Part shown: piece after piece, positions 37,245 to 50,232 of the stretch | Position numbering within the stretch: the stretch's first letter is position 1 | How the letters are laid out: every line of letters begins with the position of its first letter | Assembly (NCBI GenBank): GCA_016705685.1 | Contig: JADJLB010000010.1 | Coordinates: 402,501-466,500 of the forward strand | Source: Propionivibrio sp. | Lineage (GTDB): Bacteria; Pseudomonadota; Gammaproteobacteria; Burkholderiales; Rhodocyclaceae | Length of the DNA stretch: 64,000 bases | Direction: 5' to 3' | The notes under the pieces: model-generated | Told to the model about the DNA's origin: nothing | The model's database searches: none | The model's input: the letters and a program-made list of their open reading frames with translations, nothing else | Program-made: the position numbers and the translations under genes

Positions 37245-39569
37245 ATGACAACCCGCAACTCTCCGCCTTCAGACACCCGAAACGCCGCGCTCAATTCATC
37301 GCCGACACCCCTGCCCCCGGCGTGGAAATCACGGCTTGAGGCCGTGCTCGCCGTTAAGGAAGACGTTCTCGCCTGGCTGGAGATCGATCTTGACGCCCAA
37401 CTTTGTTTTTCCCCTGGCTTGGTCGTTCTCACCAACCACCGACTGCTGGCCTGGGCGGCCGGCGAAAGCCCGTGGCAATCCCATGACTTGCGTCATGGGC
37501 TGACATTGTCGCGCCGCGATCATTCCGGGGTGGGCAGCCTCGAGCTTTTCGATACCCGCTCACGGCTGGCCTCCTGGCGCTATACCCTTGGCGGAGACAT
37601 CGCGGCGGGACGATTGATCGAGCAGTTTACGCGTCAGCTGGCTTTCCATCTCACCGGAAATCTTCCGGCGCTCCCGACACAGGCGCTTTGCCCCAAATGC
37701 GAAACGCCACTGCTGGCCGGCCAGGAAGAGTGTCCGCTATGCAGCAAGGAGATTCACGCGCCACCCTCGACATGGACGCTGTTTCGTTTGTGGCGCTTCG
37801 CCTATCCCTACCGCTGGCAGTTGCTGGCCGGCTTCCTTCTGTCTTTGGGGTCGACGGCGGCCACGCTGGTTCCGCCTTACCTGACCATGCCGATGATGGA
37901 CAAGGTGCTGATCCCCTACCAGAACGGTAAGCCCATCGACACGGCACTGGTCATGCTTTATCTCTCGGGCCTGTTCGGCGCGGCGCTGCTGGCCTGGATC
38001 CTGGGTTGGGCGCGCACCTACATTCTGGCGCTGGTGTCCGAGCGCATCGGTGCCGACCTGCGAACAACCACCTACGAACACCTGTTGAAGCTCTCGCAGG
38101 AATACTTCGGCGGCAAACGCACGGGCGATCTGATGGCCCGCATCGGTTCGGAAACCGATCGCATCAACATTTTCATCTCGCTGCATTTCCTCGACTTCGT
38201 CACCGATGTGCTGATGATCGCCATGACAACAAGCATCCTGATTTCGATCAACCCCTGGCTAGCGCTGGTGACGCTGCTGCCGCTGCCGATCATCGCCTGG
38301 TTGATTCATGTCGTACGCGAGAAGCTGCGCACGGGCTTCGAGCGGGTCGACCGCATTTGGGCCGAAGTCACCAATGTGCTGGCGGATACCATCCCAGGCA
38401 TCCGCGTCGTCAAGGCCTTCGCCCAGGAAAACCGCGAGGCGGCGCGATTCAGGGCGGCCAACGCACACAATCTTGAAGTCAATGACAAGGTCAATAAGAT
38501 CTGGTCGCTCTTCTCACCGACCGTCACCCTGCTCACCGAAGTCGGACTGTTGATCGTTTGGGCTTTCGGTATCTGGCAGATTTCGACCAACGAAATCACC
38601 GTCGGTGTGCTTACGGCCTTCCTGGCGTACATCAGCCGTTTCTACCTGCGCCTGGATTCGATGAGTCGAATCGTTTCCGTCACGCAGAAAGCCGCCGCCG
38701 GGGCCAAACGGATCTTCGATATCCTCGACCACGTTTCCAGCGTTCCGGAACCCCTGAAACCGGTGCACCTGGCCAGCGTTACCGGCCGCATCGAGTTGCG
38801 CAATGTGGGCTTTCGTTATGGCACGCGCAGCGTCACGCGCGACATCAGCATGATGATCGAACCCGGCGAAATGATCGGACTGGTCGGCCACAGCGGCTCG
38901 GGCAAGAGCACGATGGTCAACCTGATCTGTCGTTTCTACGACGTCAGCGAGGGCGCCATCCTGATCGACGGCGTCGATATCCGTTCGCTGCCGGTGGCTG
39001 AATACCGCCGACACATCGGCTTGGTGCTGCAAGAGCCTTTCCTGTTTTTCGGCACGATTGCCGAGAATATCGCCTACGGCAAACCGACGGCCACGCGCGA
39101 AGAAATTGTCGCCGCCGCCCGTGCCGCGCATGCGCACGAGTTCATTCTGCGTCTGGCCCATGGCTACGACTCGCTGGTCGGCGAACGCGGCCAGGCGCTC
39201 TCCGGTGGTGAGCGCCAGCGCATCTCCATCGCCAGAGCCCTATTGATCGACCCGAAGATACTGATCCTTGACGAAGCCACCTCGTCGGTCGACACCAGCA
39301 CCGAAAAGGAGATTCAAAAAGCCCTCGACAACCTCGTTCGCGGCCGCACCACCATCGCCATCGCCCACCGCCTGTCCACCCTGCGCGACGCCAACCGGCT
39401 GGTTGTCCTTGATCGCGGCCGTATTGTCGAAGTGGGCAGCCATGATGAACTGATGGCCAGGGAAGGCCACTACTACCGTCTGTACCAGGCGCAGGCCCGC
39501 AACGTCGATGTCGAGGATCAACTGCTCAGGACCGATTTCGCTACCAAGCCGGGAGGAGAACGCGAATGA
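37245..39569 (+). CDS. Cyanophycin-locus ABC exporter with N-terminal domain and zinc ribbon
   Basis: A 774-residue half-transporter of the type annotated as 'cyanophycin metabolism-associated ABC transporter'. Residues 1-145 form an extra cytoplasmic domain, followed by a four-cysteine zinc ribbon (CPKCETPLL to CPLCSKEI, residues 149-166). Then come six membrane helices (about 180-470) and an ATPase domain with Walker A GHSGSGKSTMV, signature LSGGERQRISIA and Walker B ILILDEATSS. The exported substrate is unknown. It overlaps the DUF1854 gene by 4 bases and precedes two cyanophycin synthetases, so a role tied to the polymer or to its Asp/Arg building blocks is inferred. Confidence 0.87.
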   Translation: MTTRNSPPSDTRNAALNSSPTPLPPAWKSRLEAVLAVKEDVLAWLEIDLDAQLCFSPGLVVLTNHRLLAWAAGESPWQSHDLRHGLTLSRRDHSGVGSLELFDTRSRLASWRYTLGGDIAAGRLIEQFTRQLAFHLTGNLPALPTQALCPKCETPLLAGQEECPLCSKEIHAPPSTWTLFRLWRFAYPYRWQLLAGFLLSLGSTAATLVPPYLTMPMMDKVLIPYQNGKPIDTALVMLYLSGLFGAALLAWILGWARTYILALVSERIGADLRTTTYEHLLKLSQEYFGGKRTGDLMARIGSETDRINIFISLHFLDFVTDVLMIAMTTSILISINPWLALVTLLPLPIIAWLIHVVREKLRTGFERVDRIWAEVTNVLADTIPGIRVVKAFAQENREAARFRAANAHNLEVNDKVNKIWSLFSPTVTLLTEVGLLIVWAFGIWQISTNEITVGVLTAFLAYISRFYLRLDSMSRIVSVTQKAAAGAKRIFDILDHVSSVPEPLKPVHLASVTGRIELRNVGFRYGTRSVTRDISMMIEPGEMIGLVGHSGSGKSTMVNLICRFYDVSEGAILIDGVDIRSLPVAEYRRHIGLVLQEPFLFFGTIAENIAYGKPTATREEIVAAARAAHAHEFILRLAHGYDSLVGERGQALSGGERQRISIARALLIDPKILILDEATSSVDTSTEKEIQKALDNLVRGRTTIAIAHRLSTLRDANRLVVLDRGRIVEVGSHDELMAREGHYYRLYQAQARNVDVEDQLLRTDFATKPGGERE

Positions 39570-40039
39570 CCGATTCGTCCGCTTTCCGGTTATCACGCGA
39601 CGCTCACGGGCGTCTGGTTTTCACGGGCGCAGACGGCACCTCCCATGTCGGCGTGGTTCCGGTCCGTGCTTTTCCGATCAGCGCGCCGGATCAGGGTTTT
39701 GCGCTGGTCGATCCCCACGGCCAGGAAATGGCCTGGATAGACCGTCTCGCTGACCTGAGCGACGAGCAGCGGACCTTGATTCAAGAGGAACTCGGCAGCC
39801 GTGAATTCATGCCGATCATTGAACAGATTGTCAGCGTATCGAGCTTTGCCACGCCCAGTACCTGGCGCATCAAGACCGATCATGGCGAGACCGAGCTTGT
39901 TCTCAAGGGCGAAGAGGACATCCGTCGCCTGGTGTCGCCGGCGTTGCTGATCGCCGACAGCCATGGCTTGCATTACCTGATCCGCGACCGCTTTGCGCTT
40001 GATCATCACAGCCGCCGGATTCTGGACCGCTTCCTGTGA
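39566..40039 (+). CDS. DUF1854 family protein of the cyanophycin locus
   Basis: A 157-residue protein of the DUF1854 family, seen with cyanophycin synthetases and the preceding exporter. It has LSRDAHGRLVFTGADGTSHV near the start, LVDPHGQEMAWIDRLADL in the middle and a C-terminal DRFALDHHSRRILDRFL. There are no catalytic motifs I can name. The start ATG overlaps the exporter stop (ATGA), so the two products probably work together. Confidence 0.85.
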   Translation: MTDSSAFRLSRDAHGRLVFTGADGTSHVGVVPVRAFPISAPDQGFALVDPHGQEMAWIDRLADLSDEQRTLIQEELGSREFMPIIEQIVSVSSFATPSTWRIKTDHGETELVLKGEEDIRRLVSPALLIADSHGLHYLIRDRFALDHHSRRILDRFL

Positions 40040-40180
40040 ACAATTCTTCCGAAAATTCCATCCGGGGTAATCGAATACTCGCGCCTCGCGTTATTCGACA
40101 AATCAGTCGCCGTCAAATGCGTTCAGACATTTTCCCTTCTACCCCATCGATTCGCTTTTCCTGATGCCAACATCGAGAAC

Positions 40181-42352
40181 ATGAAAACGAAAGACATCAA
40201 GTTTCTGGAGATTCGCCACCTGCGCGGACCCAACATCTGGACCTACCGCTCGGTCATCGAAGCCATTGTTGATATCGGGGAACTGGAGGATTACCCATCG
40301 AACACCCTGCCCGGATTCGTCGATCGTCTCAACGGGTTTCTGCCCTCGCTGATCGAGCACCGTTGCAGTTACGGCGAACGCGGCGGATTTCTGCGCCGGC
40401 TTGAAGAAGGTACCTGGCCGGGACATATTCTTGAGCACGTTTCGCTCGAACTGCAGAATCTCGCCGGTATGCCCGGTGGTTTCGGCAAAGCGCGCCAGAC
40501 TTCGGTCCGCGGCGTATATAAAGTGGTCATTCGCGCCTGGCATGAGGAGGTGACCCGAGCGTGCCTGGAAGCCGGCCGCGAACTGGTCATGGCGGCGATT
40601 GAGGATACCGCCTTCGATGTCCATGCCACGGTCGAGCGTCTGCATGATCTGGCCGACCGCAAACTGCTCGGACCCAGTACCGGCTGTATCGTCGAGGAAG
40701 CCACCTCCAAGGCAAGGCGCATTCCGGCCATTCGCCTGCTGTCCACAGGCAACCTCGTCCAACTGGGCTACGGTATCCATAGCCGGCGGATCTGGACGGC
40801 CGAAACCGACCGAACCAGCGCCATTGCCGAGACCATCTCGCGCGACAAGAACCTGACGAAATGCCTGCTGCAATCCTGTGGCGTGCCGGTTCCCGAAGGA
40901 CGACTGGTGGTCAGCGCGACGGATGCCTGGGAAGCCGCCGAAGACATCGGCCTGCCGGTCGTCGTCAAACCCCTGGACGGCAATCACGGTCGCGGCGTAT
41001 CGACCAATCTGAGCACCTACAAGGACGTGGAAGCGGCGTTCCAACTGGCATTGGACGAGGCGGGCGAGGTGATTGTCGAACGTTTCATCCGCGGCCATGA
41101 ACATCGCCTGCTGGTTGTCGGTGGCCAATTGGTGGCGGCGGCGCGAGGCGAAGAAGCCTGGGTGACGGGCGATGGCGTGTCGACCATCACGCAACTGATT
41201 GACACGCAACTCAATACGGATCCGCGGCGCGGCACCATGGAAAACTGCCCGCTCAACCTGATCCTGCTCGACGACGACCCGGCCGTCCGGCTGGAACTCG
41301 CGCGCCAGGGTTTCCATGCGGATTCGATTGCTCCGGACGGGCAAGGGGTGCTGATCCAGCGCAACGGCAATGTGGCGCTGGACGTCACCGACCTGGTGCA
41401 TCCGGATGTGGCCGCCGTGGCCTCGCTCGCAGCCCGGATTGTCGGACTCGACATCGCGGGCGTCGATCTGGTCTGCGAAGACATTTCCCGCCCACTCGAC
41501 GAGCAGCGCGGGGCCATCGTCGAAGTCAACGCCGGACCCGGCCTGCTGATGCACCTGAAACACTCCAACGGCGGACCCCGGCCGGTAGGTCGCGCCATCG
41601 TCGAGCATCTATTCCCGAAGGGCGACAATGGTCGAATCCCGGTCATTGGCGTTACCGGCAGCTACGGCAAAACCGTCGTCTGCCGCCTTATCGCCCGACT
41701 GCTGACGCTTGCCGGAAAACAAACCGGGTTGGCGTGTAGCGATGGCCTGTTCCTTGATCGTCGGCGGATCGACTCCAACGATTGTGCGCACTGGGACGCC
41801 GCCACACGCATCCTGATGAATCGCGCCGTCGAAGCCGCCGTCTTTGAAAACGGCAGCGATGCCATCCTCGGCGAAGGTCTGGCCTATGACCGCTGTCAGG
41901 TCGGCGTTGTTACCAATTTCGACGTTGCTCGCCATACCGGCCGCTATTACATCGAAACGGCGGATCAGGTATCCAACGTCCTGCGCACCCAGATCGATCT
42001 GGTGCTGCCCACGGGTGCAGCGCTACTCAACGCCAGGGAACCGATGCTGGTTGATATGGCGCCGCTATGCGATGGAGAAGTCATTTACTTTGCATACGAC
42101 GCGCAACTGCCGACCATCATCGCGCATCGCGAGCTGGGCAAGCGCGCCGTCGTCGTTCGCGATGGCCTGATCCTGCTGGCCAGCGGCCATGATGAAACGG
42201 TGCTGGCCAAACTGAATGACATTCCGCTGACCGAGGGTGCCCAGAACATCCCGCAGATCGAGAATGTGCTGGCGGCAGTCGGAACCGCGTGGGCTCTGGG
42301 CATTTCGTCCGATGTCATGCGTACCGGTATAGAAACATTCTTTATCGAATAA
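40181..42352 (+). CDS. cphA': Cyanophycin synthetase CphA', short form with altered ligase P-loop
   Basis: A 723-residue CphA-type protein. The N-terminal domain and ATP-grasp domain (about 220-480, including VVVKPLDGNHGRGVSTNL and EVNAGPGLLMHLK) are complete. The Mur-ligase-like part has GSYGKTVV where CphA has GTNGKTTT. It stops about 125 residues short of full-length CphA, omitting the last lobe. Betaproteobacteria often carry such a CphA' next to CphA. It may act only as the Asp-adding (ATP-grasp) enzyme, as a partner of CphA, or like CphA2, which uses beta-Asp-Arg dipeptides. Which of these applies cannot be settled from sequence. Confidence 0.88.
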   Translation: MKTKDIKFLEIRHLRGPNIWTYRSVIEAIVDIGELEDYPSNTLPGFVDRLNGFLPSLIEHRCSYGERGGFLRRLEEGTWPGHILEHVSLELQNLAGMPGGFGKARQTSVRGVYKVVIRAWHEEVTRACLEAGRELVMAAIEDTAFDVHATVERLHDLADRKLLGPSTGCIVEEATSKARRIPAIRLLSTGNLVQLGYGIHSRRIWTAETDRTSAIAETISRDKNLTKCLLQSCGVPVPEGRLVVSATDAWEAAEDIGLPVVVKPLDGNHGRGVSTNLSTYKDVEAAFQLALDEAGEVIVERFIRGHEHRLLVVGGQLVAAARGEEAWVTGDGVSTITQLIDTQLNTDPRRGTMENCPLNLILLDDDPAVRLELARQGFHADSIAPDGQGVLIQRNGNVALDVTDLVHPDVAAVASLAARIVGLDIAGVDLVCEDISRPLDEQRGAIVEVNAGPGLLMHLKHSNGGPRPVGRAIVEHLFPKGDNGRIPVIGVTGSYGKTVVCRLIARLLTLAGKQTGLACSDGLFLDRRRIDSNDCAHWDAATRILMNRAVEAAVFENGSDAILGEGLAYDRCQVGVVTNFDVARHTGRYYIETADQVSNVLRTQIDLVLPTGAALLNAREPMLVDMAPLCDGEVIYFAYDAQLPTIIAHRELGKRAVVVRDGLILLASGHDETVLAKLNDIPLTEGAQNIPQIENVLAAVGTAWALGISSDVMRTGIETFFIE

Positions 42353-42433
42353 GCGGATAAGCCGCCCGATGATCAAACTCGAAATGGATGCCTCGGCATC
42401 CCGTTGTGACCGAGATTCAAAAGGAAAACGTTT

Positions 42434-45016
42434 ATGGACGTAACACGCATCAGAGCCTTGCGCGGACCCAATCTGTGGAGCAAGCATACGGCGATTGAGG
42501 CGATCATCTCGTGTAGCGAAATCGAGCGCGTCATCGACAATATTCCGGGCTTTGAGGCACGTTTGCGCGAACGCTTTCCCGAAATTGCCCTGCTTCAACC
42601 GACCGTCAGCGACGATGTCATTTCCATGGCCCACGCCCTTGAATTCGCCGCGCTCGGGCTGCAGGCGCAAGCCGGTTGTCCGGTGACCTTCAGCCGCACG
42701 GCGCAGACCTTGGAGCCCGGCGTTTATCAGGTGGTAGTCGAATACAGCGAAGAAGCCGTAGGCCGGCTGGCCTTCGAGCTGGCACAGGAACTGTGCCAGG
42801 CCGCTACCGACGATCTTCCCTTCGATCTGGGCAACGCCTTGCATCGACTGCGCGAACTCGATGAGGACGTGCGCCTCGGACCGAGCACCGGATCCATCGT
42901 CTATGCGGCCGTGGCGCGCGGCATCCCTTACCGCCGATTGACCGAAGGCAGCATGGTGCAATTCGGCTGGGGCAGCAAACAGCGCCGCATCCAGGCCGCA
43001 GAAACCGACCGCACCAGTGCAGTGGCCGAAGCCATCGCACAGGACAAGGAATTGACCAAGACCTTGCTGCACGCCGCCGGCGTTCCAGTACCGGCGGGTC
43101 GTCCAGCCGAAGATGCGGCTGATGCCTGGGCTGTCGCTTGTGAAATCGGTGTCCCGGTTGTCGTCAAGCCGCAGGACGGCAATCAGGGCAAGGGAGTTGC
43201 CGTCAATCTGTCAACACGCGAGCAAATTGAGGCTGCCTACGCCGTTGCTGCAGAGATCAGCAACGAGGTCTTGGTCGAGCGGTTCATTCCCGGACACGAT
43301 TATCGCGTGCTGGTGGTCGGCAACAAGCTGATCGCTGCCGCACGCCGCGAACCACCGCACGTTACCGGCGATGGTACGCGCAGCGTTCGGGAACTCGTCG
43401 AACTGGTCAACAGCGATCCCAAGCGCGGCGCGGGTCATGCAACCTCGCTGACCCGTATCAGTTTCGACGACATTGCCCTCGCCCGTCTGGCAACCGAGGG
43501 CTTGACCGCTGACTCGGTGCCGGCCAAAGGCGCCCGCGTGGTATTGCGCGACAATGCCAATCTATCCACCGGGGGTACGGCCACCGATGTGACCGACGAT
43601 GTCCACCCCGAATTTGCCGCGCGCGCCGTCGCCGCAGCACAGACCATCGGCCTGGACATTGCCGGCGTCGACATCGTTTGCAACAGCGTGTTGCGGCCGC
43701 TCGAAGAACAGGGTGGCGGGATTGTCGAACTCAATGCCGCACCCGGACTGCGCATGCACCTGCAACCGTCCTACGGAAAGGGGCGTGCCGTCGGCGAAGC
43801 GATTATCGCCAATATGTTTGCCGACGGAGACGATGCGCGTATCCCGGTAGTTGCCGTCGCCGGAACCAACGGCAAAACCACGACGGTGCGCCTGATCGCC
43901 AGCGTTTTTTCCAGCCTCGGCCTGTGTGTCGGCATGACCAGCACCGACGGCGTCTATATTGATGGCCGGCGTATCGACACTGGCGACTGCAGCGGCCCGA
44001 AAAGCGCCAAGAACGTGCTGCTCCACCCCGACGTCGATGCGGCTGTTTTTGAAACCGCGCGTGGCGGCGTCTTGCGCGAGGGTTTGGGTTTCGATTACTG
44101 CGATGTGGCGGTAGTCACCAATATCGGCAAGGGCGACCACCTCGGGCTGTCGTATATCAGCACAGTGGATGAACTGGCCGTTGTCAAGCGCGTGATCGTC
44201 CGCAACGTCAAGCCGGACGTCGGCGTTGCCGTGCTCAATGCCGCCGATCCGATGGTTGTGCGCATGGCCGATGCCTGCCCCGGCAAAGTGACCTTTTTCG
44301 CCCGCGACCGTAACCACCCGGTCATGGCCATGCACCGCGCCCAGGGCAAACGCGTGGTTTACCTGGATGCCGATTCGATCGTCGCCACCGAAGGCGGCTT
44401 CGAGCAGCGCATTCCGCTGGCTGAAATCCCGGTTACCGCCAATGGCGCCATCGGCTTCCAGGTCGAAAACGCGATGGCCGCAGCCGGCGCGGGTTGGGCG
44501 CTGGGCATCGACTGGTCGGTCATTCGTGCCGGCCTGGCCAATTTTGTAAACGACGCACAAAGCGCTCCCGGCCGTTTCAATCTGTTCAATTACCGGGGTG
44601 CCACACTGATCGCCGATTACGGCCACAACCCCGACGCGATCATGGCGCTGGTTGGAGCCATCGACAACATGCCTTGTTCGGCAGGCGCGCGACGTTCAGT
44701 CGTGATCAGCGGCGCTGGCGATCGGCGTGATGAAGACATCCGCCAACAGACCGAAATTCTTGGCGACGCATTCGATCAGGTCGTTCTTTATCAGGATCAG
44801 TGCCAACGCGGACGCGCGGACGGCGAAGTGCTGGCGCTTCTTCAGCTTGGCCTGAAAAATGCCACGCGCACAACCGACATCCGGGAAATTCATGGCGAGT
44901 TTCTGGCCATCGACACGGCGCTCGCCGAGCTGAAGCCCGGAGACCTGTGCCTGATCCTCATAGATCAGATCGAGGAAGCCCTGGCGCACATTGCCAAGCG
45001 GGTGGCAGAAGGTTGA
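42434..45016 (+). CDS. cphA: Cyanophycin synthetase CphA
   Basis: An 860-residue enzyme that makes the storage polymer multi-L-arginyl-poly-L-aspartate. It has an N-terminal domain, an ATP-grasp domain that adds Asp (VVVKPQDGNQGKGVAVNL, LVERFIPGHDYRVLVVG, ELNAAPGLRMHL), and a Mur-ligase-like domain that adds Arg. The latter has P-loop GTNGKTTT (about residues 477-484) and an intact C-terminal lobe (ISGAGDRRDEDIRQQTEILG). AAAAGGAAAA precedes the ATG. It lies 81 bases after cphA'. No cyanophycinase gene is in the window. Confidence 0.96.
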   Translation: MDVTRIRALRGPNLWSKHTAIEAIISCSEIERVIDNIPGFEARLRERFPEIALLQPTVSDDVISMAHALEFAALGLQAQAGCPVTFSRTAQTLEPGVYQVVVEYSEEAVGRLAFELAQELCQAATDDLPFDLGNALHRLRELDEDVRLGPSTGSIVYAAVARGIPYRRLTEGSMVQFGWGSKQRRIQAAETDRTSAVAEAIAQDKELTKTLLHAAGVPVPAGRPAEDAADAWAVACEIGVPVVVKPQDGNQGKGVAVNLSTREQIEAAYAVAAEISNEVLVERFIPGHDYRVLVVGNKLIAAARREPPHVTGDGTRSVRELVELVNSDPKRGAGHATSLTRISFDDIALARLATEGLTADSVPAKGARVVLRDNANLSTGGTATDVTDDVHPEFAARAVAAAQTIGLDIAGVDIVCNSVLRPLEEQGGGIVELNAAPGLRMHLQPSYGKGRAVGEAIIANMFADGDDARIPVVAVAGTNGKTTTVRLIASVFSSLGLCVGMTSTDGVYIDGRRIDTGDCSGPKSAKNVLLHPDVDAAVFETARGGVLREGLGFDYCDVAVVTNIGKGDHLGLSYISTVDELAVVKRVIVRNVKPDVGVAVLNAADPMVVRMADACPGKVTFFARDRNHPVMAMHRAQGKRVVYLDADSIVATEGGFEQRIPLAEIPVTANGAIGFQVENAMAAAGAGWALGIDWSVIRAGLANFVNDAQSAPGRFNLFNYRGATLIADYGHNPDAIMALVGAIDNMPCSAGARRSVVISGAGDRRDEDIRQQTEILGDAFDQVVLYQDQCQRGRADGEVLALLQLGLKNATRTTDIREIHGEFLAIDTALAELKPGDLCLILIDQIEEALAHIAKRVAEG

Positions 45017-45100: not shown

Positions 45101-46210
45101 CTACCCTTCCTTGGTTGTGAGGGCTGTTTCCACCGGCAACTGCTTCGGCCGCAGGAAAGCCTTGCGCGCCAGATGGTAGGCCAGCAGCAGGAAGGGCATG
45201 CGCATCCAGTGCGAACGGATATAGAGGGCAAACCGGGCTAATCCTGTCCCTGGCGTATTACAACTGTCATGCGTGGGCCTCAGCGCGCGCAGATAACAAA
45301 AATCCACCAGGCTGGCAATGCCAAGAGGTGGTTTGCCAATCTCCGCCGCATTGATCACCGCTTGCGGAACCGGCGTATCGAGCATCGTGGTTGTATATCG
45401 GATCGCATAGTAGAGGGGTCGGGTCAGCCCCAATTCGATGGCCCGCGGGACCAGTGCGGACCAAAACTCCGGATTGTCCCCAAAATGACGCAACAGGCTG
45501 TCAAGATCGAACAGATCACGTAAACCATTATCCAGCGCACCCTCATGAAAAAGGTGTGTTGCGCTATGCAGCAACATATCTTCCGGTTTCAGGACGTAAA
45601 GATTTTCGTAGCCCGGCAGTGCAACCACGGCCTTCAGTAACGCCGGTGTATTGACCTTGATGCGGGCGGTTTCGGGCAGGATGGCATGGTGCACATCGAT
45701 GCTCGTGCCACGCCGGACATGGCGCATGGGAGGAATTTCATGCATCCAGCGTCGGTAATAGCGCTGGTCATAGTCGTCGTGATGCGTCCCCTGCCATCCA
45801 TTCAGCATCAACGCGCTTTCGACCTCGGCCACGTGCTTCTTTGGCACGATGATGTCGATGTCGGAGAACGTTCGTCCGTTGGCAGCCGGTAGTCCTGCCA
45901 TGACGTAGGCCGCGCCTTTGAGCAAGGTAATCTTCACGCCGGCGTTAGCGAGCGCATTCTGGATGCAATCAACTTCCCAACGCATGGCAACATCCTGCCG
46001 CTCAACCATGCGCAGTGCCGAAAAGAGATGCAATCGCGGTGAATTCGGCACCTTCTCGATTTGGCCATTCTGAATCAATAGATGCGCCAGGCGTGCCAAG
46101 AGGTTGGATCGTCTTGCTTGGCGGATCAACAGATCCCAGTCCATTTCGGACAGCGTCGGCAGCAAATCCGGGGCGAGCAAAGCGGTGACGATTTGGTCTC
46201 GTGGAATCAT
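45101..46210 (-). CDS. Nucleotidyltransferase-fold protein of an HprK-related cassette (PF14907-like)
   Basis: A 369-residue protein of the uncharacterised nucleotidyltransferase family. The motif GRTFSDIDIIVPKKHV (D117 and D119) gives two metal-binding acids, preceded by the LLKGAAYVMAGLP loop. The C-terminal part is helical (LRDLFDLDSLLRHFGDNPEF) and ends in a basic hydrophobic tail. Its ATG overlaps the stop of the HprK-related gene (ATGA). Homologues accompany HprK-like kinases in some lasso-peptide clusters and in the 'HPr-rel-A' cassette. The reaction here, transfer of a nucleotide or phosphate to an unknown acceptor, is inferred. Confidence 0.82.
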   Translation of the reverse strand: MIPRDQIVTALLAPDLLPTLSEMDWDLLIRQARRSNLLARLAHLLIQNGQIEKVPNSPRLHLFSALRMVERQDVAMRWEVDCIQNALANAGVKITLLKGAAYVMAGLPAANGRTFSDIDIIVPKKHVAEVESALMLNGWQGTHHDDYDQRYYRRWMHEIPPMRHVRRGTSIDVHHAILPETARIKVNTPALLKAVVALPGYENLYVLKPEDMLLHSATHLFHEGALDNGLRDLFDLDSLLRHFGDNPEFWSALVPRAIELGLTRPLYYAIRYTTTMLDTPVPQAVINAAEIGKPPLGIASLVDFCYLRALRPTHDSCNTPGTGLARFALYIRSHWMRMPFLLLAYHLARKAFLRPKQLPVETALTTKEG

Positions 46211-47124
46211 TCGATACGCCCGGCTAGCAAATCATCAAAAACCCGCTCGGCGTCGTCGAGGCGACTGTAAGTCAGTTGAAAGCACTGGCTTTGGTCGATC
46301 AGCCGGCCAACCGCATCAAAACCACGTGAACCCTGAATATCGTAATTGAACGATTGTTCGGCGATCAGCATGAAGGTGCGCGCCCGACTATGCCGTTCCA
46401 ACTGGGGTGAAGCACCGGCAGTGTACTTCGGTAACACCACCCATGCCGGGCAAGCTGGCTGGTTCATCCGCTGAACACTATCCACCGGCGGGCGCATCAA
46501 CGCAATCGTACCCTTCGTCGTATCGGGCACCGATGCGGTAAACACCGCCGCAGGGGCAAACTGTTTGATAACGTCTACGGACACATTTTTGAGATTTACT
46601 GGGCGACACATCCCGTAAATCAAATCGCTATCCATGTCCAAAAGCGCGAGTTCGTCCGAAAGGAGGCGCCACCCGCGATTGACCAGTCCCGCACAGAGCG
46701 TGCTCTTACCCGAACCAGGGGGAGCGGGCAGAATTGCCGCCTTCCCCTCTCTTTCGATTACAGCGGCATGAATAATCAGATACTGATGACTATGCGCGGC
46801 AACGCACCAGTTGAGCCCCCACTCGAGCATGGCAAACGCCTGGTCAGCGGGCAACGGAATAAACGACGGGCGCCCGTCGAAATAGAAACGAACTTGCGGT
46901 TTCGCCCATCGTCTCAGGCCAGTATCCAGCGCCACCTTGACGTGAAAATCGGCGAAAGTGTTCTCGGGGCTGGTATGGAAATCGGCGTACATCAACGCGA
47001 TATCGCGTGCAATGCTTACGACATCCGAATTCAATCGCGCAACGAAAGGGCCGAGATTAAGCAACAACGCGCCGCAGCGAAGCCGACTTTCAAGCTCCGC
47101 TTCAGTGAATTCAGAAATTTTCAA
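46207..47124 (-). CDS. HprK-related kinase A
   Basis: A 305-residue protein whose C-terminal half resembles HPr kinase: the strand-and-histidine segment LIIHAAVIERE, Walker A PAPPGSGKST (about 133-142) and the acidic LLSDELALLDM segment. The N-terminal half is unlike HprK and is shared with the family named HprK-related kinase A. There is no HPr gene nearby, so the substrate is probably not HPr. The start is a TTG at 47124 overlapping the PqqD-like stop (TTGA); no ATG is suitably placed and no ribosome-binding site is visible, so translation depends on the upstream gene. Confidence 0.85.
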   Translation of the reverse strand: MKISEFTEAELESRLRCGALLLNLGPFVARLNSDVVSIARDIALMYADFHTSPENTFADFHVKVALDTGLRRWAKPQVRFYFDGRPSFIPLPADQAFAMLEWGLNWCVAAHSHQYLIIHAAVIEREGKAAILPAPPGSGKSTLCAGLVNRGWRLLSDELALLDMDSDLIYGMCRPVNLKNVSVDVIKQFAPAAVFTASVPDTTKGTIALMRPPVDSVQRMNQPACPAWVVLPKYTAGASPQLERHSRARTFMLIAEQSFNYDIQGSRGFDAVGRLIDQSQCFQLTYSRLDDAERVFDDLLAGRIE

Positions 47125-47420
47125 TTAGGGGTGTTGTAGACGAGGCCGACACCACGCAACTGTATCAGAGTTGTTTCGATGACCTCAAGAGCAACTTTTT
47201 GATCGTCGTCCTGAAATACATCATGCAGCTCAGTTGCCAGCATCGCGGAAGTACATGGAGCTGACTCGACCATCTCAAGAATCACTGCAGCCAGCGGTTC
47301 CAGAAGGTGCGTATCGCCACTTGATTTGTGGTAAACGACAATCAGGTCGTCGTCGCCCCAATCACGATACTGCGAAACACTCGCCGAAGCCGGATACCAT
47401 CGGCGAGTTGAACTATCCAT
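47121..47420 (-). CDS. PqqD-family peptide chaperone-like protein of the HprK-related cassette
   Basis: A 99-residue PqqD-like winged-helix protein, of the type that binds leader peptides for modifying enzymes. It has WGDDDLIVVYHKSSGDTHLL, EPLAAVILEMVESAP and a C-terminal IETTLIQLRGVGLVY. The ATG at 47420 is taken, although an in-frame GTG or TTG just upstream is possible and no clear ribosome-binding site is seen. It is followed by overlapping kinase and nucleotidyltransferase genes. No radical-SAM enzyme or cyclase is present, so the modification differs from PQQ or lasso-peptide maturation. Confidence 0.8.
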   Translation of the reverse strand: MDSSTRRWYPASASVSQYRDWGDDDLIVVYHKSSGDTHLLEPLAAVILEMVESAPCTSAMLATELHDVFQDDDQKVALEVIETTLIQLRGVGLVYNTPN

Positions 47421-47485
47421 CACCAATCAGGGCTGGGCCGCGAGTACGTTAAGAATCGACTTTGATCGCTGTCACACACCGACAA

Positions 47486-48172
47486 CTACGGTTGGACAAT
47501 CCAGTTATTGAACAGGTAACTGACGATATCCGTTTGGTTCCAAACAAAAGAAACGTTTGGAGGAGAATATGAGCCACTGGCCATCTTCTTCAGCTCGGCG
47601 AGCGTTACACAGCGGTCCAGGTCATACGGTGAAGCAAGCGGGGCCAGAAGTATGTAGTTCAATTGTGCGACGATAATATATTTCTGGAAATCGGTACCCG
47701 AGCTCAAGACCACTTTCACATAGGCCGAATTGCTCAATCCGGACGGCCTGCCCAAACCTGGGACATTCCCGAACAACTTGGCAACCGTAACTTTTGTATA
47801 GTCAAACTGGCCTGAATTGTTCTTGATACCATTGTACTTGGCGTACAACTTCGCCCACGGATTTCCGACCCCAAGCCGGTCGGAGTTGCTGACCCAATTG
47901 GAAATCGTCCAAGTTTCGTCAGCCCACTTTTTGTGACCCTCGTTGGTTGCAAGACTGGTGTGCGGGTTTAACTGCTCCGACCCCCAAGCCGAGGGCGATT
48001 TGCAATGCCAGGCCAACACCGGCCGACTGGCCAGGGTCAACAGGACGGGCGCCGCGGCAACGCCCCGCTTAAGCAACCGGCGCCGGGCAGAGGCACGAGA
48101 GGGCTGCACTGGCGAAATTGCCTCCTTAGCCAAGGTCTCTTCCTGTGAATGTTCGTTTTGCATGTCGCTCAT
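47486..48172 (-). CDS. Putative exported protein with twin-arginine-like signal, candidate substrate of the HprK-related cassette
   Basis: A 228-residue protein of no family I can name. A polar N-terminal stretch of 28 residues precedes ARRRLLKRGVAAAPVLLTLA (29-48) and RPVLA, predicted cleavage after A54; the mature chain starts WHCKSPSAWGSE. The RR-x-L-L-K pattern suggests Tat export, but Sec is possible. The remainder is rich in Asn, Ser and Tyr and has no catalytic motif. The start at 48172 has AGGA 8 bases upstream. It is 65 bases before the PqqD-like gene, on the same strand. Proteins with the APVLLTLASRPVLA-type signal recur next to this cassette and PEP-CTERM loci (recollection, not searched). 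Confidence 0.7.
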   Translation of the reverse strand: MSDMQNEHSQEETLAKEAISPVQPSRASARRRLLKRGVAAAPVLLTLASRPVLAWHCKSPSAWGSEQLNPHTSLATNEGHKKWADETWTISNWVSNSDRLGVGNPWAKLYAKYNGIKNNSGQFDYTKVTVAKLFGNVPGLGRPSGLSNSAYVKVVLSSGTDFQKYIIVAQLNYILLAPLASPYDLDRCVTLAELKKMASGSYSPPNVSFVWNQTDIVSYLFNNWIVQP

Positions 48173-48508
48173 GGTCAATCCTTTAGCTTGCTCTATCCAT
48201 AAACCAGGGCACAACTCTAGCAATCTGCGGCCAACATGGACGTGAACTATTTCACGAACTTCATTCAAAGTGCACCTGGTTTGTTCCTGCAATTACTTAA
48301 GCAAAATACATGCCGAACAAAATATATTCCTATTACCCATTGTTTATTAAAAACTTTGTTAAGGTCAGCCGCAAATTTCACCTTAACCTGAAAATCAAAG
48401 TGTAAATTTCGTCGACACACTAGAACCGCTTAAGCCAAACAAAAGACTAAGCTCAAAAAACTTTCAAAGCGGAGCATAGCCAATTCAATCCGGCAAAGCT
48501 GCCTCGCA
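48173..48508. other. AT-rich intergenic stretch before the exported-protein gene
   Basis: 336 bases with no gene I can support, clearly richer in A and T than the flanking genes. It holds a small palindrome (separate entry) and the likely promoter of the exported protein and cassette. Candidate -10 boxes such as TATATT are present on the minus strand, but no -35 stands out and no sigma-54 site was found. Confidence 0.6.
48241..48256. promoter_or_regulatory. Palindrome CGTGAA-CTAT-TTCACG
   Basis: Perfect 6-base inverted arms around 4 bases, about 70 bases upstream of the exported-protein start, in the AT-rich leader. It could be an operator or a small hairpin in the 5' leader. Confidence 0.35.
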
Positions 48509-49294
48509 TTATTGCAGATCGCCTATCAATTCCTGCAAATACCTTACCGGGATAGCAAAACTGATCCCTGAAGGGTGCGTCAATGCGGACTCCTTGGTAC
48601 CTTTGACAAACACCATATTGATAATCCCGATCACTTCGCCTTTTTCCATTTCGTAGAGCGGGCCCCCGCTGTTCCCCGGATAGGCGGTTCCATCCAACTG
48701 ATAGACTTCAAACGAACCGCTTTTCAATCGTTTGATCACTTTTGAATTCAATTGATGCGCTGTCGCACTGGGTATGGCAACTTGAGTGATGGCCGAAACG
48801 ATACCCCGGTGGGTCACCGGCGACAGGCCAAGCACGTTACCGATCGGGAAACCGGTAAACGCAACGCTTTGCCCTTCGCGTATTGGTCCTCCGGAATGCA
48901 GGACCATCGCCGGCAAGGGCGTTCCTTCAATGCGCAGCAGAGCCAGGTCATGGGCGGGGTCGGTCACTACAATTTTTGCTGCACGTTGCTGTGGTCCTTG
49001 TCGACTCGTGGGCACAATAACCATCAATGTTTCATCAATTTCCGAGTTCAAACTATCAGGTATGACATGGGCGTTTGTTGCAATCAGGTTGCCATTTCCG
49101 ACCACGAATCCGGCGCCCCTGATTGCGTATACCGGGCTGCGCGTCTTGGCGTAAGTGGCGACAACCACTATCGACGGTTTGATCTGTTCGATCAACTCGG
49201 GCAAAGCGGCGCAAGCCAGTCCTGGCAGCGACAGCAGAACCACGAAAAAAAAACCGCTAAAGCCTGCTCTTCGGTTGAATATTTCCGAACGCAT
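48509..49294 (-). CDS. Trypsin-like serine protease (S1C type) of the exopolysaccharide locus
   Basis: A secreted protease. Counting from the GTG at 49321, the triad is H85 in ATNAHV, D125 in DPAHDLALL and S218 in GNSGGPL. There is no PDZ domain, unlike DegP. The ATG at 49294 gives a standard signal peptide (FSGFFFVVLLSLPGLACA) and is used here; the GTG at 49321 overlaps the upstream stop and would add nine residues. It is the last gene of the run that begins with the glycosyltransferase, and probably works in the periplasm on proteins tied to polymer export. Confidence 0.82.
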   Translation of the reverse strand: MRSEIFNRRAGFSGFFFVVLLSLPGLACAALPELIEQIKPSIVVVATYAKTRSPVYAIRGAGFVVGNGNLIATNAHVIPDSLNSEIDETLMVIVPTSRQGPQQRAAKIVVTDPAHDLALLRIEGTPLPAMVLHSGGPIREGQSVAFTGFPIGNVLGLSPVTHRGIVSAITQVAIPSATAHQLNSKVIKRLKSGSFEVYQLDGTAYPGNSGGPLYEMEKGEVIGIINMVFVKGTKESALTHPSGISFAIPVRYLQELIGDLQ

Positions 49295-49320
49295 CGAAGG
49301 TATCACGATGTCTCGAATCA

Positions 49321-50232
49321 CTAAAGCGATTTTGGAGCCCGGATTCGTGATAATTCCGGTGACGGATTCACCACGTTCGGGTCATAGGGATGCTCGTCTT
49401 TCTTGAATACGCTCATGATTCGCTTGACGTAATCACGAGTTTCGGCATAAGGGGGAACTCCCCGGAAGCGATTCACAGCGCCCTCGCCGGCATTGTAGGC
49501 GGCGGCGACGAGTGGAACATTCCCTTCGAAATAGGCCAGCAGCCAGCGAAGATAGGACATCCCGCCACGGATATTCTGTTCGGGATCGAACGGCTTCTTA
49601 ACGTTGAAACGTGCCGAGGTTTCGGGGATAAGCTGCATCAAACCCTGGGCATTCTTAGGCGATACGGCCGTAGGTTCAAAATTCGATTCGGCCCGGATAA
49701 CGGCCATGACCAGCCGCGGGCTGACACCATATTCCGGGGCAAGTTTTCGAACCAAGCCAAACACTTTCTGCTGCGCCGGGCTACTCGACTGCAAGGCTTT
49801 TTGAAACTCGGGGTCGGCGTCTGAGTAGCGCATACATTCGGGCATGGGGGCCACCGTCTCGCCGACGAATCGCAACATCTTCTTTGCTTGCGCATGCCCT
49901 TGATCCGCTGCCAGCTTGAAAAAGTAAGCAGCCATTTCATCGCTGTGTGGGAAGCCACGGCCATTGGCATACATCCAGCCCAGGCTGAACTGAGCCTCGG
50001 CATCCCCGTAGCGCGCACCATCGCAATAGAGACTGGCGGCACGAACGAGATCTTTGGAAACTCCTTCACCATGCTCATAGGACCGGGCTTCGTTCCTGAG
50101 CGTAACCAGATCTTCAGGTGCGGGGTCTTCAAATGCGGCATGTGCGAGCACCGGGGCAATAGCCAATAAAACAGCACAAAGAGCCGTGTATATTGGCTTA
50201 CCGACAAACAGCTTTCTAAAGACGGCAGGCAT
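49321..50232 (-). CDS. Lytic transglycosylase with Sel1-like repeats
   Basis: A 303-residue periplasmic protein: signal peptide (ALCAVLLAIAPVLAHA), two Sel1-type TPR-like repeats at about 45-118 (AASLYCDGARYGDAEAQFSL and YFFKLAADQGHAQAKKML), then an SLT domain with catalytic E182 in AVIRAESNFEP, GLMQLIPETSARF and AAAYNAGEGAV. It opens peptidoglycan, presumably to let an export machine cross the wall. It starts 2 bases after the epimerase stop and overlaps the protease gene's alternative GTG start by one base. Confidence 0.88.
   Translation of the reverse strand: MPAVFRKLFVGKPIYTALCAVLLAIAPVLAHAAFEDPAPEDLVTLRNEARSYEHGEGVSKDLVRAASLYCDGARYGDAEAQFSLGWMYANGRGFPHSDEMAAYFFKLAADQGHAQAKKMLRFVGETVAPMPECMRYSDADPEFQKALQSSSPAQQKVFGLVRKLAPEYGVSPRLVMAVIRAESNFEPTAVSPKNAQGLMQLIPETSARFNVKKPFDPEQNIRGGMSYLRWLLAYFEGNVPLVAAAYNAGEGAVNRFRGVPPYAETRDYVKRIMSVFKKDEHPYDPNVVNPSPELSRIRAPKSL

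Follow-up and report, generated by a model that had tools for sequence, protein, structure and literature searches.

In the paeninodin and LPP systems, according to the accessible sections of the reports, the kinases PadeK and LppK phosphorylate a serine of a leader-bearing peptide, and the HprK-like kinases of these clusters can even polyphosphorylate one serine (PMC9266682, PMC8498205, PMC13381572). The same sections place the modified serine at the C-terminus in paeninodin-type peptides and at the third core residue in LPP, and they describe PsmN as adding hexoses onto the serine phosphate (PMC9266682, PMC8498205, PMC13381572). LPP peptides and paeninodins are described there as restricted to Bacillota (PMC13381572), whereas the cassette analysed in this work lies in Pseudomonadota. 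It was found in a stretch of 64,000 nucleotides from Propionivibrio sp. (contig JADJLB010000010.1, positions 402,501 to 466,500), the whole of which is called the window here, and it comprises genes for an exported protein, a PqqD-like protein, an HprK-related kinase and a nucleotidyltransferase-like protein. We hypothesize that a relative of the paeninodin and LPP tailoring enzymes probably phosphorylates a serine of the leader-bearing protein before its export by the twin-arginine translocation (Tat) pathway, and that the nucleotidyltransferase, where present, elaborates this mark. The link between the exported protein and the cassette, as its predicted substrate, is well supported, and the chemistry of the modification is suggested by analogy.

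All four genes lie on the minus strand in the order given above. The gene of the exported protein (47486..48172, minus strand) encodes 228 amino acids (aa), including a Tat-like leader with an arginine pair (RR), and its product, the substrate candidate, belongs to what we call class A; it starts with ATG at 48172, its stop ends at 47486, and the open frame reaches back to a TTG at 48292. After a gap of 59 bases follows the gene of the PqqD-like protein (47121..47426, minus strand, 101 aa, with an alternative ATG at 47420), a putative leader-binding element of the type known as the recognition element (RRE) of ribosomally synthesized and post-translationally modified peptides (RiPPs). This protein scores 61.9 bits with TIGR04353 (cut-off 35) and 21.2 bits with the Pfam PqqD model, slightly below the cut-off of 23.4. 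The HprK-related kinase A (46207..47124, minus strand, 305 aa, TTG start) reaches 405.5 bits with TIGR04352 (cut-off 200), and the nucleotidyltransferase-like protein (45101..46210, minus strand, 369 aa) reaches 219.7 bits with PF14907 (cut-off 31.2), the family to which we take the nucleotidyltransferase homologue of the paeninodin type to belong. The kinase gene overlaps its neighbours by 4 bases on either side, with TTGA (47124-47121) at the PqqD-like gene and ATGA (46210-46207) at the nucleotidyltransferase gene. The kinase contains the P-loop PAPPGSGKST and the residues H119, K140, D157 and E158, and the nucleotidyltransferase contains SDIDI and the residues K98, R113, D117, D119 and D172. 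An earlier note made from the sequence of the window alone had described the four-gene layout, both junctions, the P-loop and SDIDI, and all of these were confirmed. By both curated cut-offs (TIGR04352, TIGR04353) and with the PqqD-like gene adjoining the kinase gene, the cassette is an HPr-rel-A system; the names of these models give no function, and no NCBIfam model for the exported partner was found in any of its classes A, B and C. Since the arrangement recurs across Pseudomonadota, chance is no explanation for the cassette.

The co-occurrence of the kinase and the exported family was followed in several sets of genomes and loci. In a sample of 398 Pseudomonadota genomes, treated as one draw in all counts (same size and handles), the kinase was counted as present above the TIGR04352 cut-off, as in 61 genomes; 199 genomes match at E ≤ 0.001, so that 138 genomes with weaker matches were counted as kinase-less. 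Two alignments of the exported protein were used, namely A2 for class A (59 rows, the window protein among them) and A4 for class C (37 rows). Among 59 related genomes, the kinase was matched in 16, and 15 of these are exactly the 15 genomes matching A2, while the other 44 match neither the kinase nor A2, save for a weak kinase match in G040. This sixteenth match is an ordinary HPr kinase by its neighbours, in a genome with no exported family. In all 15 relatives the exported-family match lies near the kinase; in G039 it is downstream of the trio and of class B by reading. The exported protein of the window, used alone as the query, has matches in 10 of the 59 relatives and a single match in its own genome; a match on contig 7 of G039 was rejected, as no such protein was found there on reading. 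In the phylum sample, A2 or A4 matched at E ≤ 1e-6 in 60 of the 61 kinase genomes and in 3 of the 337 others, and at the looser E ≤ 1e-3 in 60 kinase genomes and 11 others. The three kinase-less matches (G227, G340, G397) comprise the mature domain alone, inside larger proteins without a leader, and the sole kinase genome without an exported match, G245, is fragmentary (57% complete). The recall in this sample is partly by construction because 27 of the 37 A4 rows were drawn from its genomes, but the low rate in kinase-less genomes and the result for the relatives are not.

A second set consisted of named loci, the best 80 of 146 loci found with the kinase alone as the query, which may share genomes with the relatives. 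At E<0.5, an exported open reading frame (ORF) lies at most 2.6 kb upstream of the kinase in 75 of the 80 loci and anywhere in the locus in 77; at E<0.001 these numbers are 72 and 74. The three remaining loci are L123, which has an exported ORF by eye, L082, which is cut by a contig end, and L090, in which none was recognised. A third set of 56 held-out loci was obtained from the 61 kinase genomes by leaving out G000 and G049 (already used) and G135, G245 and G229 (contig edge or fragment). A model of 13 seeds found an upstream exported ORF in 44 of them, and five more (L172, L173, L178 and L180 by eye, and L189 by a model match where the kinase frame had been taken too long) raise this number to 49. 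In L198 the exported ORF stands beside the kinase on the opposite strand, and for L158, L167, L182, L200, L201 and L210 an exported-family match lies elsewhere in the genome. The exported family, whose absence from most cassettes the earlier note had named as telling against its proposal, was thus found in nearly all of them, and the RR protein accompanies the trio constantly (in all 15 kinase-bearing relatives, in 60 of the 61 kinase genomes of the phylum sample, and upstream in 75 of the 80 named loci). In L109 and L081, a single trio has two exported leader proteins nearby, which suggests that the same enzymes may act on more than one substrate.

The leader of the window protein (residues 1-55; 48008..48172, minus strand) carries RR at residues 30-31 and APVLLTLASRPVLA; its cleavage after A55 is only guessed at, given the A-x-A-like surroundings. 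In class A, R31 is present in 59/59 and R30 in 58/59 members. Over all classes, RR was found in 116 of 119 leaders (a set that leaves out L049, L072, L093, L207 and L176), and it is followed by a hydrophobic stretch, which often has P and TL, and by an A-x-A-like end. The exported protein is predicted to be a Tat substrate from the RR before the hydrophobic stretch together with the TatC encoded in the host genome (243.3 bits). The window protein has no Pfam or NCBIfam family, and no Pfam or NCBIfam model covers classes A, B and C. Apart from formate_TAT, which matches 3 of the 59 class A members, there are scattered weak matches to one member each of the sets of 59, 16 or 37; among the weak-match models of the exported relatives, three are Tat-signal models.

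The three classes have the RR leader in common and differ in their mature parts, and the precursors are mostly of 120-300 aa (L114, 92 aa). In class A, to which the window protein belongs, S-x3-S stands right after the leader and is usually preceded by C; a T/SPGYW domain is often present as well. Class B is characterized by LARSSNL or a similar motif and by a serine motif near the C-terminus, and class C by [ST]C-x2-S-[FLIVM] close to the C-terminus. With patterns that were drafted after inspection of the seeds and named loci, the held-out sequences also having been seen before the count, the 78 named proteins comprise 51 of class A, 9 of C, 6 of B and 12 of none (shuffled expectation 1.26, 0.19 and 0.11 for A, C and B), the 44 held-out proteins 32 of C, 8 of A and 4 of none (expectation 0.07 for C and 0.96 for A), and the 13 seeds 10 of A, 1 of B and 2 of none. 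Some of the proteins with no pattern are fragments or class A proteins with other spacing. The exported RR proteins of L039 and L114, encoded next to the kinase, belong to no class. In L211, L212 and L213, from kinase-less genomes, the mature domain of class A (T/LGYWK or TPGFWK followed by a helical part) is embedded in larger proteins.

The candidate phosphoacceptors of the window protein lie in the motif C57-K-S-P-S61-A-W-G-S65 (47978..48004, minus strand), with the S65 codon at 47980-47978 and the S61 codon at 47992-47990. In the class A alignment, whose 59 rows are 13-43% identical to the window protein, R31 and S65 are the sole invariant columns (59/59), and the next most conserved are R30 (58/59), S61 (57/59), C57 (55/59) and N172 (54/59). 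Of the 79 named ORFs, A2 omits 21, namely 16 that belong to classes B and C, the truncated or wrongly started L049, L072 and L093, and also L114 and L116. Six of its rows were added on visual inspection, and 52 were grouped by BLAST of the mature part, not by the serine. The class C rows were brought together on the basis of the C-terminal motif, recognised with the pattern or by eye, and in their 37-row alignment RR, two cysteines and S156 are invariant. Apart from the RR motif, a serine is one of the best conserved residues, as expected for a kinase substrate. Furthermore, the S65 codons are TCN in 56 of 59 cases and AGY in 3, and those of S61 are TCN in 56 of 57, compared with 780 TCN and 421 AGY among all 1201 serines of the set; all four TCN codons are in use at the conserved serines, and binomial figures for these counts ignore kinship. 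Since a change between TCN and AGY normally runs through another residue, S65 and S61 have rarely been lost within this set. When 26 rows beyond A2 were added (12 seeds, 11 held-out proteins lacking the class C motif, L114, L116 and the initial piece of L031), both R30 and R31 were arginine in 26/26, and the S65 column was serine in 19/26. In the assembly, unknown bases split the exported gene of G017 (L031), which leaves its state uncertain.

The catalytic residues of both enzymes are strictly conserved: the kinase tetrad His-Lys-Asp-Glu (H119, K140, D157, E158) is invariant in 121 of 121 kinases, and K98, G99, R113, D117, D119, D172, H174, H215, D235 and H346 are invariant in 80 of 80 transferases. 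A FastTree phylogeny of the kinases (68 rows of class A, 6 of B and 47 of C, the labels assigned partly by eye) requires 3 changes of exported-protein class, where the minimum is 2 and the shuffled mean is 42.4, with none of 200 shufflings as low; the class A kinases form one side of a branch with a support of 94. Vertical descent might explain part of this agreement, but classes A and C both occur among Rubrivivax records (L056, L057 and L089 versus L117). The transferase stands beside the kinase in 77 of the 80 named loci (single-sequence search), and within 5 kb around it in 36 of the 56 held-out loci. As it was not found there in the other 20, the core of the system looks like kinase, PqqD-like protein and exported protein, which refines the trio of the earlier note. 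A sequence search of the PDB gave no credible match for the transferase.

The proposed sequence of events begins in the cytoplasm, where the PqqD-like protein would bind the RR leader and present the exported protein to the kinase, the leader serving as recognition element and Tat signal in one. The kinase would then phosphorylate a conserved serine, namely S65 and perhaps S61 in class A, and the serine near the C-terminus in classes B and C. By analogy, these placements mirror those of both paeninodin and LPP. The nucleotidyltransferase-like protein, where present, may elaborate the phosphate; a hexose or a nucleotide would be the likeliest addition. The Tat pathway carries folded proteins, and such export suits a mark made in the cytoplasm; the marked protein would exit via the Tat channel and act outside the cell, often in bacteria that make exopolysaccharide. 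We infer leader binding, phosphorylation and its elaboration, their timing, the use of Tat and the role of the product.

The earlier note had taken paeninodin as the precedent, and the relationship stands, but not as the sole or closest one, because the LPP peptides are nearer as far as the accessible text describes them (PMC13381572). The LPP systems share with the cassette a discrete RRE, an HprK-like kinase and a nucleoside triphosphate transferase, with no cyclase, as well as a phosphoserine soon after the leader, a conserved leader with a variable C-terminal part, and polysaccharide loci (PMC13381572, accessible sections). In contrast to the RR leaders and precursors of mostly 120-300 aa observed here, LPP leaders carry YxxP and are removed by an SpI-like peptidase, and the core of LPP clusters includes an MsbA-like exporter (PMC13381572, same sections). 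No such peptidase or exporter was recognised in the ORFs at 40-53 kb (at least 60 aa) and 52.6-64 kb (at least 180 aa) of the window or in family scans; among the recurrent neighbours of the 80 named loci, no signal peptidase was recognised, and an ATP-binding cassette (ABC) ATPase cluster occurs in 5 loci. Paeninodin and pseudomycoidin resemble the cassette, by what is accessible, in an HprK-like kinase acting on a C-terminal serine, a nucleotidyltransferase homologue and an RRE (PMC9266682, PMC8498205); neither a lasso macrolactam cyclase nor a B2 peptidase was recognised in the cassette and the flanks read. The lasso-tailoring kinases have the signature His-Lys-Asp-Asp in the accessible part of PMC9266682, as against the His-Lys-Asp-Glu of the kinases studied here. 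A literature search, with most subscription papers outside its reach, returned nothing on 'HPr-rel-A' or 'HprK-related kinase A', nothing combining any two of exosortase, HprK and PqqD, and nothing joining twin-arginine with a RiPP recognition element and a kinase. The words Proteobacteria, Pseudomonadota, twin-arginine and Gram-negative are absent from the main text of PMC13381572. What would be new relative to paeninodin and LPP is thus a leader that looks like a Tat signal and a cargo that is mostly a protein of 120-300 aa.

Several observations weigh against phosphorylation of the exported protein and its elaboration. The phosphate, nucleotide or sugar on this protein is a prediction from sequence, the phosphoacceptor would sit at different places in different classes, and the conserved serine could be structural. 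S65 is not universal, being serine in only 19 of the 26 rows outside the alignment: L039, L114 and L170 are without the motif and L041 is of class B, while L037 and L038 contain S-x3-S but were aligned otherwise and L036 has one extra residue between the serines. The invariance of the class C serine is to some extent built in, because its motif served to define the class. The NCBIfam Tat-signal model matches 1 of 59 class A members, and the [YW]xxP motif of lasso and LPP leaders occurs in 2 of the 119 leaders with 2.46 expected by chance, so that what the PqqD-like protein binds must differ from LPP and lasso leaders. Of the 56 held-out loci, 20 showed no transferase near the kinase, and 18 of these extend more than 1.4 kb downstream. 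Moreover, the precedent for hexose transfer is one lasso case, and the deletion of lppN gave no detectable change in the accessible account of the LPP study (PMC13381572). L090, from a Phycisphaeraceae metagenome-assembled genome outside Pseudomonadota, contains the full trio with no recognisable exported partner.

The trio might instead act without a lasting covalent mark, with the PqqD-like protein as a Tat proofreading chaperone and the kinase driving release or assembly at the expense of ATP. Chaperones that bind the signal are frequent for Tat cargos, and the RR leader is the part common to all classes, but the invariance of the kinase tetrad and of the acidic residues of the transferase, and the position of the conserved serines outside the leader, make this rather improbable. 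We rate somewhat lower the possibility that the exported protein is a carrier, receptor or partner and that the enzymes really modify an unannotated peptide or a distant protein. The mature parts differ widely, and LPP and lasso systems act on short peptides in the accessible account (PMC13381572), yet the exported family accompanies the kinase in 60 of 61 genomes and in all 15 kinase-bearing relatives, and the window's own genome has a single match to it. It is very unlikely that the kinase targets HPr or another protein of the phosphotransferase system (PTS), with only a regulatory link to the exported protein. The PDB search with the kinase did return HPr kinases only, and HPr(Ser) kinase/phosphorylase (1jb1) aligns with it over the Walker A motif and the following acidic motif, but this weak similarity (E 3e-4) spans only about 60 residues, and the kinase scores 16.8 bits with TIGR00679 (cut-off 240). 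The genome does encode HPr, about 300 kb away, so the absence of HPr stated in the earlier note holds for the cassette and not for the genome; no PTS gene was recognised by reading among the recurrent neighbour clusters, and the kinase clades follow the class of the exported protein. Least probable of all is a phosphoserine intermediate that is eliminated and captured by a conserved cysteine to give a thioether ring as in lanthipeptides, since the conserved Cys beside the conserved Ser in classes A and C is offset by the lack of a lyase in the cassette, by class B without these cysteines, and by the fact that two conserved cysteines, in a protein that is exported, fit a disulphide.

A bolder form of the preferred phosphorylation model, which we consider unlikely, is a RiPP-like system acting on whole folded proteins. 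The leader would be both kinase recognition element and Tat signal, the PqqD-like chaperone would pass only phosphorylated cargo, and a sugar cap added by the PF14907 protein would, in Gram-negative bacteria, tie the protein by a phosphodiester bond to the exopolysaccharide of the neighbouring genes. For the two HPr-rel-A families of NCBIfam, whose system has no known function and which exceed the cut-off in 61 of the 398 genomes sampled, the exported protein is a nearly constant fourth member and the probable substrate, and S65 offers a testable residue. If the exported protein is indeed phosphorylated, phosphorylation guided by an RRE would reach beyond short peptides to proteins exported by Tat, and the parallel occurrence of such systems in Bacillota and in Pseudomonadota, in either case often close to polysaccharide genes, would point to a putative common role at the cell surface.

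Upstream of the cassette on the same strand lie genes for an HtrA/trypsin-like protease (48509-49321, minus strand, 336 bases away), a lytic transglycosylase, sugar-nucleotide enzymes and PrsT of the XrtA/PEP-CTERM system (TIGR02917, 894.3 bits), and beyond PrsT, by reading, a sigma-54 regulator, a histidine kinase and a sugar transferase. The earlier note had reported no protease, which is correct for the cassette itself but not for these surroundings. With names given by reading cluster representatives, at least one polysaccharide-type neighbour cluster was found in 43 of the 80 named loci and at least two in 22, and Prs-type clusters in 24. The HtrA-like protease was considered as a fifth member, being present in 21 of the 80 named loci, 18 of which also have polysaccharide neighbours. 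It occurs in 9 kinase-less relatives as well, and in several kinase-bearing relatives it is on another contig or far from the kinase, and it was therefore set aside as a gene of polysaccharide loci. The genome of the window encodes an exosortase, and 32 of the 61 kinase genomes have one, compared with 50 of the 337 others (kinship uncorrected); as 29 kinase genomes are without it, it is not required. An Rfam scan of the window found three tRNAs and no regulatory RNA, and promoter and terminator scans gave fewer sites than in shuffled sequence. On the plus strand, genes at 39566-45016 converge on the cassette, encoding a CphA-associated DUF1854 protein and two cyanophycin-synthetase-like proteins, one of 723 aa named by reading and one of 860 aa matching PRK14016.

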